Below are positions 10,455 through 42,552 of a stretch of DNA of 45,553 nt, one piece after another. The DNA lies in the IMG/VR virus record IMGVR_UViG_3300009686_000061, positions 1 to 45,553 of that record, one strand, 5' to 3'. The position numbers and the translations under genes are program-made. Positions within the stretch are counted from its first letter, which is position 1. The number at the start of each line of letters is the position of its first letter. This DNA comes from a virus. The notes beneath the pieces were generated by a model. That model ran no database searches. It worked only from the letters and a program-made list of their open reading frames with translations, and was not told where the DNA came from.

Positions 10455-10476
10455 AAAAAGCCACATCGTGTGTGGC
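10455..10476 (-). terminator. Intrinsic terminator after the structured intercistronic RNA
   Basis: On the minus strand GCCACA and TGTGGC (10471-10476 and 10460-10465) form a 6-bp stem with loop CACGA, followed by TTTTTC. It ends the gene-free stretch and lies just before the next gene's ribosome binding site. Confidence 0.65.
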
Positions 10477-10725
10477 GTGTGGGTGGGATGCAATGGGTTG
10501 GCCAGCTGTCTGATCAGAGCAATCGCGCTCTTTGCTGGTCAATGCCGTTGCGGCCCGTAAATGGTTGATGGTGAGCGGGTATGTGATCCCGACTTATGCG
10601 ACTTACTCTGGCGCATCACAACTACTCATTCACCATCAAGTAGCCGGGCTGGTTTGCACTTTCGCATCGGCCCTATTTCGGCTCCGCTCCATGCTAGGCA
10701 ACCCGTCTACTTGATAGCCTGTGAG
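10477..10725 (-). ncRNA. Structured intercistronic RNA, third member of the prophage RNA set
   Basis: No gene fits here. Read on the minus strand, ATCAAGTAGACGGG (10715-10702) pairs with CCCGGCTACTTGAT (10648-10635), with one mismatch. TTGATGGTGA (10639-10630), overlapping the second strand, can instead pair perfectly with TCACCATCAA (10574-10565). Inside lie nested helices GGTTGC/GCAAACC and GCAT/ATGC; TGTGAT/ATCACA encloses GCG/CGC further on, and AGAGC/GCTCT follows. The block TTGATGGTGAATG after the closing stem is identical in the late-leader RNA. Boundaries are approximate; the 3' end is the terminator at 10455. The role is inferred, perhaps an attenuator or switch between operon halves. 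Confidence 0.6.
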
Positions 10726-11595: not shown

Positions 11596-11679
11596 CACTC
11601 TCTCCTTTGTTGATTCACAAAAACAAAACTCACCTGTCACGAAAGTTTTGTTTGCCGTCATGCGCAGACGGCGGGCGGG

Positions 11680-11877
11680 TTAATTAGAGCCGGAGCCGTC
11701 GCCGGAGCCGTAGCCGTCGCCGTCGCCGTAGCCGGAGCCGGAGCCGGAGCCGGAGCCGTAGCCGGAGCCGGAGCCGTCGCCGTAGCCGTAGCCGTCGCCG
11801 TCGCCGTAGCCGTCGCCGTCGCCGTCGCCGTAGCCGGAGCCGGAGCCGTCAGTGAATTTTTTACTTGCCAAAGCCAT
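11680..11877 (-). CDS. Gly-(Ser/Tyr/Asp) dipeptide-repeat protein
   Basis: A 65-aa protein. After MALASKKFT come about 28 dipeptides, each Gly paired with Ser, Tyr or Asp. Every repeat codon ends in C (GGC with TCC, TAC or GAC), so the DNA is a 6-bp degenerate tandem repeat. AAGGAG lies seven bases before ATG 11877, which overlaps the end of the upstream gene. Such a chain would be disordered or silk/antifreeze-like; function unknown. The repeats could change length by slippage. Confidence 0.65.
   Translation of the reverse strand: MALASKKFTDGSGSGYGDGDGDGYGDGDGYGYGDGSGSGYGSGSGSGSGYGDGDGYGSGDGSGSN
11687..11851. repeat. 6-bp degenerate minisatellite (GGC + TCC/TAC/GAC)
   Basis: On the minus strand, alternating GGC and one of TCC, TAC or GAC runs without interruption for about 27 units. 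Only the two bases KM of each unit vary. It encodes the dipeptide-repeat protein. Confidence 0.85.
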
Positions 11878-12239: not shown

Positions 12240-12742
12240 GGTTAAAACCTAAAAACTCAGCAAGCCTTTAGGTTTTGCCCCTGTCGCCAAGGGCCAGCCG
12301 ATATAACCCTTTCGGTCCCGGCTGATAAATACACCAGCATTACGCTGCTGGTAGAGCGGTCGGCCACCTCATGATTTGCCTGTTGCGTTTCTTGTCTTGG
12401 CTGCAACGCCTCATCCAGTCTCTCGCGCCTGGCTTGCGTCCACTGCTAAGCACTTGTGATGTGCCGCTACGTGGGTTAGTTTGTGTCTGAATAGATTTAG
12501 AAAGGCGGGCTGGGCTTGATTCCAGCTTGTAATGCTTACTCGCTCACCGTGCAATCTTTCGGGCTTATGGTGTGGCCTATATGCTTGCGTCGAAGGCTTC
12601 CCTTGATGCTACAAACGGCGTCCATTACTTCGAGTCCTGCGTTTCCTTCAACGCCGCCGCCTATCTAAATCCACTCAGATTTTTAAAGACCGTAGACAGG
12701 TTGGTTCGATCACTTGCTGCCACCGCTGCGTTTTGCTGCGAT
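12240..12742 (-). ncRNA. Long structured leader RNA of the leftward (PL) operon
   Basis: About 500 bases between the predicted PL start (12742) and the first gene hold no good gene; a 29-codon frame exists without a clear ribosome site. A 22-bp stem (12678-12657 with 12508-12487; two G-U pairs, one mismatch) encloses two blocks shared with the late-leader RNA: 12660-12640 (20 of 21 bases) and 12527-12505 (23 of 23). The latter is a GCTGG/CCAGC hairpin. Further 3' are ACCAGCA/TGCTGGT, CAGCCG/CGGCTG, GCCC/GGGC and AAAACCTAAA/TTTAGGTTTT (12275-12242) hairpins; the last sits just before the first ribosome binding site. Role inferred: antitermination or translation control. Confidence 0.65.
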
Positions 12743-12748
12743 GGGTGA

Positions 12749-12776
12749 ATTGTAGCGAATAGCTACAGCATTGCAA
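12749..12776 (-). promoter_or_regulatory. PL promoter of the leftward early operon
   Basis: On the minus strand, -35 TTGCAA (12776-12771), a 16-bp spacer and -10 TACAAT (12754-12749). The same two hexamers with the same spacer form PR at 14582-14609. Predicted start near 12742. Confidence 0.75.
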
Positions 12777-20435: not shown

Positions 20436-21076
20436 ACCAACCCCAGCCCGACGCCATCACGATAGATGACCGCTACATTTCCGCCACCCATGCGTCAAAC
20501 CTGCGGCTGGAAGCTGATAAGCCGGGGCCGCTTGATGTCGTTATCGCGGTCGGCTGGTGCAAACAAAAATTGTACGGCGCAATGACCCGCTTGTTTTCCG
20601 AGTACGACGGGGTTAGCCATCCGAAGCCCATGAGCGCGGTAATGGTGGGCGGTTTGGCTCAAACGCTGGATAGTTGCAAGAAGGTTATTGGGCTGGAGCG
20701 GGCGCAGATCATGGCTGATTCATGGTACGCGCAAGAGCTTGTCATGATGATGATGCGCCTAAAGTCGCTGCCAGCCATCCGGCATGAGCTTACCTATCAA
20801 GCGGGCCGCATGGGTATCGAGTCACCCCGCGAGGTGGCTGTGGCTGTGATTATGTGGATGCTTGACGACGTATGCGACACCTGCCACGGCGCTATTCGTG
20901 ACGTAGCCAAAAACGAGGCCTACATCCCAAAGCCGATTGTTTGCCCGACATGCCGGGGTAGCGGCAAAAAGAAGATGCCGTATGGCGATTCGGGCCGTGA
21001 TCTGGTGGGGTATATCCAAGAAATTATGGGCGATGCGCGAAATAGCACAAAGAAAAGATTGTCAAGATTCAAATAA
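20432..21076 (+). CDS. Q-like antiterminator candidate with zinc finger
   Basis: A 214-aa protein. Residues 20-145 are helical. Residues about 147-180 carry C-D-T-C-H-G and, 22 residues later, C-P-T-C-R-G-S-G-K, the split zinc finger of lambdoid Q-type antiterminators. It is the last gene of the rightward early operon. A promoter (21059-21087) overlaps its 3' end, and a leader with an intrinsic terminator precedes the terminase genes. This is the classic Q/PR' layout. Function is inferred from finger type and place. Confidence 0.68.
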   Translation: MNQPQPDAITIDDRYISATHASNLRLEADKPGPLDVVIAVGWCKQKLYGAMTRLFSEYDGVSHPKPMSAVMVGGLAQTLDSCKKVIGLERAQIMADSWYAQELVMMMMRLKSLPAIRHELTYQAGRMGIESPREVAVAVIMWMLDDVCDTCHGAIRDVAKNEAYIPKPIVCPTCRGSGKKKMPYGDSGRDLVGYIQEIMGDARNSTKKRLSRFK

Positions 21077-21087
21077 TATGTTATTCT
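21059..21087 (+). promoter_or_regulatory. Predicted late promoter (PR'-like)
   Basis: -35 TTGTCA (21059-21064), 17-bp spacer, -10 TATTCT (21082-21087). It overlaps the end of the Q-like gene and would start transcription near 21094, at the 5' edge of the structured leader. No other promoter of this quality was seen between early and late genes. Confidence 0.6.
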
Positions 21088-21093
21088 CCTTTT

Positions 21094-21694
21094 TAATATC
21101 AACGCTTGATTGATAGGTTATGTTGAATGTCCTTGCAATACCGCCCGTAACTGGTAGCGATGCAAGGGATGATCCATAGATGGTTAGCCGCCTTTGAAAT
21201 AGGGCGCAAACGCATGATGATTGGCAGGGAGTTTTGGAGCAGCTTGGTAATGTGGATACACAAAACCTCTGTTTCCAGACGTTACCGCACTGGCCAGTGA
21301 CAGTCATCAGTCGTTTGGTGAACGAGTCGGCTCACAAGGCTGGTTAAAACAGCATCAGACGAGCAGGGTAAAGCCTGACAAACTACCGGATTGAAAGCGT
21401 CTGGTGCCATCAAATAAGCGGCGGCGCTGAAGGAAACGAACAATCGCAACATATGAAGACGGACGGAGGATTGTTGCAATCCTAGGTGAAGTGATCCCCG
21501 AAGTCGTTTAGCTGGAATCAAGCCCAGCCCGCTTATTTGATGGTGAATGTGCAGGCTGATGCACAAAGAAAGGTAAAACTGCTTTAGGTTGGTATATTTC
21601 TTACCGGAAAAGGACCAGCATTAAAGAATGCCGGATGTTCAGTACCGGCCACCATTAAACACAACCCGCAGGTTTACGCCTAGCGGGTTTTTTT
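21094..21694 (+). ncRNA. Large structured late-leader RNA (about 600 nt), possibly a new RNA class
   Basis: No credible gene lies between the Q-like gene and terminase. The RNA folds along its whole length. CCTTGCA/TGCAAGG pairs at 21131-21137/21161-21167. GAGTTTTG/CAAAACCTC (21229-21236/21261-21269) interleaves with GGTAATG/CGTTACC (21246-21252/21280-21286), a candidate pseudoknot. CATCAGACG/CGTCTGGTG pairs at 21353-21361/21398-21406. A perfect 15-bp stem (21407-21421/21529-21543) abuts it. Inside are AACAATC/GATTGTT and a GCTGG/CCAGC hairpin. Segment 21536-21545 can instead pair with 21650-21659, next to the terminator. Blocks 21418-21438 and 21510-21532 recur in the PL leader. Role inferred: antitermination, switch or structural phage RNA. 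Confidence 0.7.
21663..21694 (+). terminator. Intrinsic terminator ending the late-leader RNA
   Basis: AACCCGC (21663-21669) pairs with GCGGGTT (21683-21689); AGG/CCT extends the stem inside; seven T's end at 21694, followed by ACG. Late genes are expressed only if this is overridden, as at lambda tR'. Confidence 0.88.
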
Positions 21695-21831
21695 ACGCCC
21701 CGACTTCAGCCACACAGACGCGGCGCAATGCCAAACCACTGAAGATCGCGGGCACCAATAAGGAATCCCATAGATGAAGGATGGGATGGCTAATCCAATG
21801 GGGGCACCCTGTATGCATTACAGGGGATGAC

Positions 21832-29774: not shown

Positions 29775-29836
29775 AACCCGCACAGCCCGCCCTAAACCAG
29801 CGGGTTTTTTTACGCCCGCTCGATGCGGGCTTTTTT
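29775..29836 (+). terminator. Two tandem intrinsic terminators
   Basis: AACCCGC/GCGGGTT (29775-29781/29800-29806) with a T7 run followed by ACGCC, then GCCCGC/GCGGGC (29814-29819/29825-29830) with T6. They separate the capsid/HNH genes from the connector genes within the late operon. Confidence 0.82.
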
Positions 29837-32279: not shown

Positions 32280-32338
32280 CCACCTACGGGTGGTTTTTTT
32301 ACGCCCTCACTTTCCCGCCGCCTTTGAGCGGTTTTTTT
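32280..32338 (+). terminator. Two tandem intrinsic terminators before the sheath gene
   Basis: CCACC/GGTGG (32280-32284/32289-32293) with T7-ACGCC; then CCGC/GCGG (32318-32321/32328-32331) with T7-ACGTC. Both face the late operon direction. Confidence 0.75.
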
Positions 32339-32360
32339 ACGTCTCAAAAGGTAAATTCAC

Positions 32361-40650: not shown

Positions 40651-40673
40651 GCACCTTTTGAGGTGCTTTTTTT
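40651..40673 (+). terminator. Intrinsic terminator within the baseplate genes
   Basis: GCACCT/AGGTGC (40651-40656/40661-40666) with a TTTG loop and T7, then ACGCC. Confidence 0.82.
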
Positions 40674-40696
40674 ACGCCCAAAATTAAGGAGAAGGA

Positions 40697-41913: not shown

Positions 41914-42552
41914 ATGAAGAACTTTGAGCAGACCATTGTCAGTCAGTACGGCAATAGCCCGACCATCGTCGCCCTGGTCACGAACATGAACCAGTACATC
42001 GACCAGACGGCGAACTTTCAGCAGTTCTACGACTTCGTGTGGAACGTGAACACCGCGCAGGGCTTCGGTTTGGATATTTGGGGTCGCATCGTAGACGTGA
42101 AACGGGCGCTGCAAATCAATGCGCCGGTCACGAACTTCGGCTTTCAGGATGGCGTGAAAGACACCGCGCCATTCGGACAAGCTCCGTTCTATGCGGGCGT
42201 ACCGGCGACCAGCACCTACATGCTGTCAGACGATGCTTACCGGACTTTGATTCTGGCCAAGGCGCTGGCGAACATCAGCGCTACCACTTCGCAAGCCCTG
42301 AATCAGCTACTGCGCAACCTATTTCCAAATCGCGGTCGCTGCTACGTGAATGACATTGGCGGCATGGCGATGCGCTACACCTTTGAGTTCTATTTGCAGC
42401 CATACGAGGTGGCGATTGTCACCAGTAGCGGAGTCTTGCCGCATGGCGCAGGCGTCAGCGTGAGCGTTCTACAGATCGACATACCCAACACCTTCGGCTT
42501 TGCAGGCTCTGGCTTGCAACCCTTCGGACAAGGTTCTTTTTACGCCCCTTGA
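41914..42552 (+). CDS. DUF2612 baseplate/tail protein
   Basis: A 212-aa protein. N-terminus F-W-like helices, then N-T-A-Q-G-F-G-L-D-I-W-G-R-I-V, L-S-D-D-A-Y-R-T-L-I-L-A-K-A-L-A-N-I, and two F-G-Q-(A/G)-x-F-Y segments. This is the DUF2612 family found between baseplate J and tail fibres, probably the fibre-attachment protein. Confidence 0.82.
   Translation: MKNFEQTIVSQYGNSPTIVALVTNMNQYIDQTANFQQFYDFVWNVNTAQGFGLDIWGRIVDVKRALQINAPVTNFGFQDGVKDTAPFGQAPFYAGVPATSTYMLSDDAYRTLILAKALANISATTSQALNQLLRNLFPNRGRCYVNDIGGMAMRYTFEFYLQPYEVAIVTSSGVLPHGAGVSVSVLQIDIPNTFGFAGSGLQPFGQGSFYAP

Follow-up and report, generated by a model that had tools for sequence, protein, structure and literature searches.

The window analysed here is the whole of a viral record of 45,553 nucleotides (IMGVR_UViG_3300009686_000061), in which an intergenic unit on the plus strand, at 21059-21694, lies between a Q-like gene and the late genes. 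The preliminary description had placed no gene between 21077 and 21831, and the ORF list of the window agrees, sense ORFs of at least 60 amino acids being absent from about 21076 to 21781; two antisense ORFs lie in the leader region, at 21062-21307 and 21282-21566. The promoter that was claimed to overlap the end of the upstream gene is present as a sequence (TTGTCA-17-TATTCT, 21059-21087), complete with a TG extended -10 element; however, it is a match to the consensus only (9 of 12 positions), and a promoter scan returned 4 such sites against 3.2 in shuffles, so that taken alone it stands at chance level while being a plausible extended -10 site. At the other end, a hairpin read from both the sequence and the fold (AACCCGC...GCGGGTTTTTTT followed by a U tract, 21663-21694) is a clear intrinsic terminator, as had been described, and its U tract is, by analogy, a possible Hfq site. 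The trailer following the terminator stem, TTTTTTTACGYCY, is common to several terminators of this phage and forms a repeated family, occurring at 21685-21701, 29802-29818, 32291-32307, 32329-32345, 40664-40680 and 42532-42548.

The upstream gene resembles Q in its position and its CxxCxGxG motifs only, whereas it has no PHROG or Pfam match at E 0.001, the best being a DnaJ zinc domain (E 0.011). The terL gene downstream of the leader is confirmed (Terminase_3, E 4e-38). Thus, as regards the features of a lambda-type late leader, the promoter is recognised by consensus only and the homology to Q is non-significant, with terL situated downstream. A search for tRNA genes in the window found none.

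The predicted 601-nt transcript of this unit (RNA1) folds at -201.1 kcal/mol, with a z-score of -5.1 against 20 shuffles and -3.9 against 60. When its parts are considered separately (60 shuffles), the segment 21401-21660, which contains the two modules described below (T1 and T2), has a z-score of -3.7, and the 5′ part of the transcript (21094-21400) one of -1.4, comparable to the -1.3 of coding DNA from the window. The structural signal of the intergenic unit sits in its 3′ 40%. The proposal that helices run along the whole length consequently does not hold, and the pairing density said to be far beyond that of an ordinary leader is found at 21401-21660 but not elsewhere. The segments of the pseudoknot proposed at 21229-21269 and 21246-21286 are indeed complementary (21229-21236 with 21261-21269, with one bulge, and 21246-21253 with 21279-21286, with one G-U pair), but they lie in this same 5′ part, which shows no structure beyond chance and is almost without relatives: no homologues along the whole transcript were found for it, save about 30 nt (21350-21381) that recur in contig L055. 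These comprise GCAGGGTAAAGCCTGACAA followed by CCGG..GAAAG, common to the window and L055 (4301-4332) and located near a T1 module in both, and are perhaps another small module.

The first module, T1 (21407-21543), is supported by its fold, the recurrence of its motifs and covariation. Its outer helix is the perfect 15-bp stem enclosing 107 nt that had been reported earlier, and was found at 21407-21421/21529-21543; within it lie a D-arm-like hairpin with a GAAGGA loop (21424-21438), an insert (21439-21510) and a T-arm-like hairpin with a AATCAAGC loop (21511-21528). A blastn search of the whole region against phages gave no match because the inserts and outer helices diverge, and short motif searches were hence needed. 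Motif scans of IMG/VR and bacterial genomes followed by a descriptor yielded 185 copies of T1 in 182 fetched loci, representing 162 distinct cores, all with the same order of elements: the outer helix, a CG, the 5′ hairpin (typically GCGTK-GAWGGA-MACGC), an insert of 28-176 nt, the 3′ hairpin (NCNGG-WATCAAGC-CCNGN) and, without a linker, the 3′ arm of the outer helix. The two loops may make G-G and U-C elbow contacts.

In the T1 outer helix, the seven pairs nearest the core form in 150-162 of the 162 cores, six of the seven via several pair types. Of the 24 pairs compared across 36 diverse cores, 22 vary on both strands, with a covariation score of 0.662 as against 0.171 in shuffled and at most 0.158 in slid alignments; the descriptor itself demanded some pairing (the hairpins and the inner six outer pairs), and those counts lean towards the model to that extent. 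The next two outer pairs outwards, which were not demanded, are paired in 29 and 26 of the 36. The length of the outer helix is bimodal, with 7-9 bp in solitary copies and 16-17 bp in arrays. The inserts fall into subfamilies common to unrelated phages, and that of RNA1 is also present in L175 and L059; comparison of these three versions revealed two compensatory pairs within the insert and changes of this kind in 9 of 36 pairs over the whole module. In RNA1 itself, the D-arm-like hairpin of T1 contains one C-A and one G-A mismatch.

Directly following T1 is the second module, T2 (21539-21656), likewise identified by fold, covariation and recurrence. It consists of a 7-bp acceptor (GATGGTG/CACCATT, 21539-21545/21650-21656) with an adjoining AAT linker, a D-arm-like hairpin (GTGC-AGGCTGAT-GCAC, 21549-21564), an insert (21565-21629) and a T-arm-like hairpin (GCCGG-ATGTTCAGTA-CCGGC, 21630-21649). 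The 5′ strand of the acceptor, which reaches 9 bp if counted from 21537, overlaps the T1 outer helix by 5-7 nt. The 9-bp helix previously said to abut the 15-bp stem therefore exists, but its strand overlaps that of the stem and the two compete for the same bases (21537/21539-21543), such that in RNA1 T1 probably uses 10 bp once T2 is formed. The loops GCTGA and TTCAG(T) of the two hairpins are complementary and constitute a kissing pseudoknot. Among T2 relatives, a D-loop GCTGAT faces a T-loop ATCAGC, and the loops change jointly (GGTGAT/ATCACC, GTCGA/TCGAC, TGGCA/TGCCA, GTTGAT/ATCAAC). In all, both partners vary in 17 of 22 T2 pairs, among them 4 of the 6 kissing-loop pairs, with a covariation score of 0.485 against 0.132. 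The first-pass scan for T2 was partly circular, pairing having been required. A non-circular check is provided by the D-arm matches: in 96 of 136, a 5-bp hairpin is followed immediately by an exact 7-bp partner of the acceptor, whereas swapping the acceptors among loci would lead one to expect 8.4 such cases. Compensatory changes, whose lack in homologues the preliminary description had named as grounds for refutation, are thus present in the homologues of both T1 and T2, and the view of this region as a discrete, gene-free structured RNA in the late leader is upheld.

These modules are widespread. T2 is matched at a query coverage of at least 80% in at least 121 annotated phage records, and a version of the mEp460 type is found in 844 of 5426 complete E. 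coli genomes (about one in six), with 237 places on plasmids; nine of ten E. coli places sampled have no annotated feature under the match. T2 is located between tRNA genes in ZC03, adjoins tRNAs in KP591P1, CASP1, the P1-like plasmid pSJ_98 and P1, lies between Q and tRNA-Phe in phiEt88, and also occurs in Ackermannviridae phages. Across 63 loci, its nearest upstream gene is a CI-type repressor (Peptidase_S24) in 11 and an antitermination Q in 8 (6+2, by family counts), and these repressor- and Q-adjacent settings are the same two kinds of place that hold the copies in the window. In P1, an unannotated array (L415 603-1340; NC_005856 about 69502-70240) contains several tRNA-like modules following tRNA-Asn and tRNA-Thr. 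T1 is found in unannotated gaps of named phages of Iodobacter, Acidovorax, Caulobacter, Pseudanabaena and Alcaligenes, and also between genes of operons, where solitary copies with 7-9-bp acceptors sit between a stop codon and the next ribosome-binding site. A search for a conserved partner among the neighbouring genes found none, the nearest proteins scattering into many small clusters. The modules, their covariation, their spread and their locations are established; they are mostly unannotated in hundreds of unrelated phages, and probably form an extensive family of phage sRNAs, STnc100/PasD being the sole members recognised before.

Among the arrays, those of L011, L018 and L020 show alternating CCATCA/TGATGG boxes, each able to pair with the module before or after it, and contain a further recurrent type of module (GCCTTGCCAT...ATGGGTAAAGTCAGGGT); a real tRNA-Met closes the arrays of L018 and L020. 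In Pseudanabaena phage Pan3 (L283 1990-2130), a tRNA-like sequence with a standard T-arm (GGGTTCAAATCCC) is nested in the T1 insert.

The window contains further copies on its minus strand. A self-search with RNA1 recovered 23 identical bases at 12505-12527 and a second match at 12640-12664, which are the two conserved ends of one T1 module (12494-12671) in a second noncoding RNA, RNA2 (12776-12244), belonging to the leftward operon. RNA2 comprises a putative promoter read from the sequence upstream of the module (TTGCAA-TACAAT, 12749-12776), the T1 module, whose insert is grouped with that of contig L020 in one subfamily, further structured segments, and a terminator-like hairpin with a T tract (AAACCTAAA...TTTAGGTTTT, 12244-12275). 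The outer helix of its T1 (GATTTAGATAGGCGG/CCGCCTTTCTAAATC) differs in many pairs from that of RNA1 (CCATCAAATAAGCGG/CCGCTTATTTGATGG) with the pairing kept. Contig L005 carries a relative of most of RNA2, including CAGCCGGGACCGAAAGGG.TATATCGGCTGG. A third noncoding region on the minus strand, RNA3 (10717-10455), contains a related helix, a hairpin module (10633-10717) that precedes a degenerate T2-like module with complementary TGTGAT/ATCACA loops (10565-10639), and a terminator-like hairpin (10455-10482). The D-arm mismatches of T1 in RNA1, together with the degenerate T2 of RNA3, suggest that some copies may be decaying. Elsewhere in the window, 11663-11866 is a tandem 6-bp repeat (GCCGGA/GCCGTA/GCCGTC), the minus strand of which reads as a Gly/Asp/Tyr-rich repeat.

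Both T1 and T2 display the layout of a tRNA minus its anticodon arm: a 7-bp acceptor, a 2-3-nt linker, a D-arm-like hairpin, an insert, and a 5-bp T-arm-like hairpin that abuts the acceptor. The 7-bp acceptor and 5-bp T-stem without an intervening linker are shared with tRNAs (RF00005), whereas the anticodon arm (5-bp stem, 7-nt loop) is absent and in T1 an insert of 28-176 nt stands in its place; further, the T2 loops are joined by about 5-6 Watson-Crick pairs, unlike those of tRNA. Neither ARAGORN nor Rfam calls a tRNA at the modules. A search of the window RNA with the 4227 Rfam models gave no match at the gathering score, and Rfam holds no T1 or T2 family. Chance-level matches to isrK (E 0.1) and Trp_leader on both window RNAs are due to the terminator, and integron attC sites, group I introns, known ribozymes and tmRNA were dropped, having no Rfam match and the wrong layout.

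The nearest relative appears to be STnc100/PasD (RF02076), sRNAs from prophages of enterobacteria, a homology suggested by the shared layout. STnc100 and T2 both have a 7-8-bp closing helix, an AAU linker, a 5′ hairpin, an insert and a 3′ hairpin abutting the helix, and in STnc100, as in RNA1 (21663-21694, after T2), an intrinsic terminator with a U tract lies directly 3′ of the module. In contrast, the loop and stem sequences differ, STnc100 having a short 5-nt T-loop and T1 carrying GAWGGA and WATCAAGC loops that STnc100 does not show, and neither T1 nor T2 reaches the gathering score of the RF02076 covariance model. RF02076 is matched in Klebsiella phage Magnus, and the P1 array holds an STnc100-type copy alongside T2. 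Copies of STnc100 are transcribed in EHEC, with one confirmed by Northern blot (PMC5331693), and its relative PasD is Hfq-dependent, has RIL-seq targets (PMC8550237) and has been linked to Q in lambdoid prophages (PMC13192938).

Other phage RNAs offer more partial parallels. Like the modules, T4 rnaC/rnaD (species 1 and 2) are stable noncoding RNAs of about 120-140 nt from a phage tRNA cluster, rnaC retaining a tRNA T-arm, but a scan of both revealed no T1, T2 or convincing kissing-elbow signature. The lambda pR′ leader (6S) RNA, which is 194 nt long, extends from promoter to terminator between Q and the late genes, a place that RNA1 would also take after its Q-like gene; RNA1 would be three times longer and contains tRNA-like modules. 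The HK022 put RNA, which has two hairpins and antiterminates in cis, shares with RNA1 a leader position in early/late operons, whereas the modules occur widely outside leaders.

The reading that we tentatively favour, at somewhat below even confidence, is that of a late-leader transcript which yields a processed, trans-acting, tRNA-like small RNA. Transcription from about 21094 to 21694 would be expected, since a promoter and a terminator are present: a noncoding RNA of about 600 nt would start at the promoter by the end of the Q-like gene, in the position of the lambda 6S RNA, and stop at 21694. Its working part would be 21401-21694, i.e., T1, T2 and the terminator, on the same plan as STnc100/PasD, with T1 and T2 folding as modules, a step that the covariation demonstrates. 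In each module the 7-bp acceptor and the 5-bp T-stem stack into a 12-bp minihelix, and minihelices of this type are recognised by RNase P and related enzymes; on this ground, the tRNA-processing and degradation RNases of the host are proposed to trim RNA1. RNase P also accepts pseudoknotted non-tRNA substrates (PMC12710915). The released, elbow-folded and very stable RNAs could go on to work in trans, in the simplest case by base-pairing as Hfq-bound sRNAs, with the variable insert as the specificity part and, by analogy to PasD, the terminator U tract as the Hfq contact. Transcription, processing, Hfq binding and action in trans are thus all predictions for RNA1, and the wide differences in the inserts between phages argue against a conserved seed.

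The strongest rival is that the modules are tRNA mimics acting as decoys, which occupy RNase P, modification or repair enzymes, or tRNA-attacking anti-phage nucleases and thereby shield phage or host tRNAs. The 7-bp acceptor with its abutting 5-bp T-stem, the D-arm-like hairpin, the loop-loop contact and the presence of modules inside the tRNA clusters of several phages are all consistent with this, as is the acceptance of pseudoknotted substrates by RNase P (PMC12710915). Nevertheless, the modules lack an anticodon arm, the copies read have no encoded CCA, the T-loops, at 8-11 nt, exceed the canonical 7, and the conservation of inserts in subfamilies would be needless for a pure decoy; on balance we regard it as unlikely, if deserving of serious attention. 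The same tRNA-like topology, and the solitary T1 copies between a stop codon and the next ribosome-binding site, could alternatively mark entry sites for RNase P/RNase E, at which polycistronic phage transcripts would be cut and protected. Such processing punctuation would leave the conserved insert subfamilies, the multi-module arrays and the copies with their own terminator unexplained, and we hold it to be quite improbable.

The modules of the window and of many relatives, bounded by a promoter and a terminator, stand just after the repressor or Q gene, where lambdoid antitermination takes place. This setting would suit a long cis-acting leader that renders RNA polymerase antiterminating at the leftward and late promoters in the manner of HK022 put, as the preliminary description had also entertained. 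However, T2 copies in the tRNA clusters of P1 and ZC03 and in Ackermannviridae, and T1 copies between operon genes, have no evident leader role, and no put-like family is among the Rfam matches, making this explanation improbable. The suggested membership in the GOLLD/ROOL group fares worse. These RNAs resemble the modules in being phage-encoded, multi-domain, and linked by loop-loop contacts, and their niche of phages and tRNA islands (PMC12286853) is also that of T2 relatives, such that modular arrays with kissing loops could be imagined to build large RNA objects as a structural scaffold. Yet the modules are small and recombined, single modules of 100-200 nt make up most of the copies, and neither GOLLD nor ROOL is matched by Rfam in the window RNA even at E ≤10, with no similarity in sequence or covariance model. 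GOLLD and ROOL themselves are thereby excluded, and we consider a scaffold very doubtful. Finally, the unstructured 5′ half and the chance-level promoter match would fit foldable intergenic DNA with no RNA function, but the recurrence of T1 and T2 in hundreds of phages, along with their compensatory changes, already refutes this reading for 21407-21656; for the unit as a whole it is scarcely credible.

Beyond the processed small RNA proposed for this locus, we consider it possible, though again with less than even confidence and a touch more cautiously, that a single superfamily of modular, nestable cassettes, whose tRNA-like elbow consists of an acceptor and kissing D- and T-arms, extends across many phage families. 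STnc100/PasD, the T2 of P1 and E. coli prophages, and T1 would be its branches, with interchangeable inserts replacing the anticodon domain, and its members would serve during infection as scaffolded guide RNAs or as tRNA mimics that undergo processing. Few unannotated structured RNAs of dsDNA phages seem to be as common as T1 and T2. If the layout in common with STnc100/PasD is true, scattered prophage sRNAs become one architecture, and the role of phage tRNA-island RNAs becomes directly testable in P1. The array of that phage is overlapped in antisense by plp and upl, predicted genes that may not be real.
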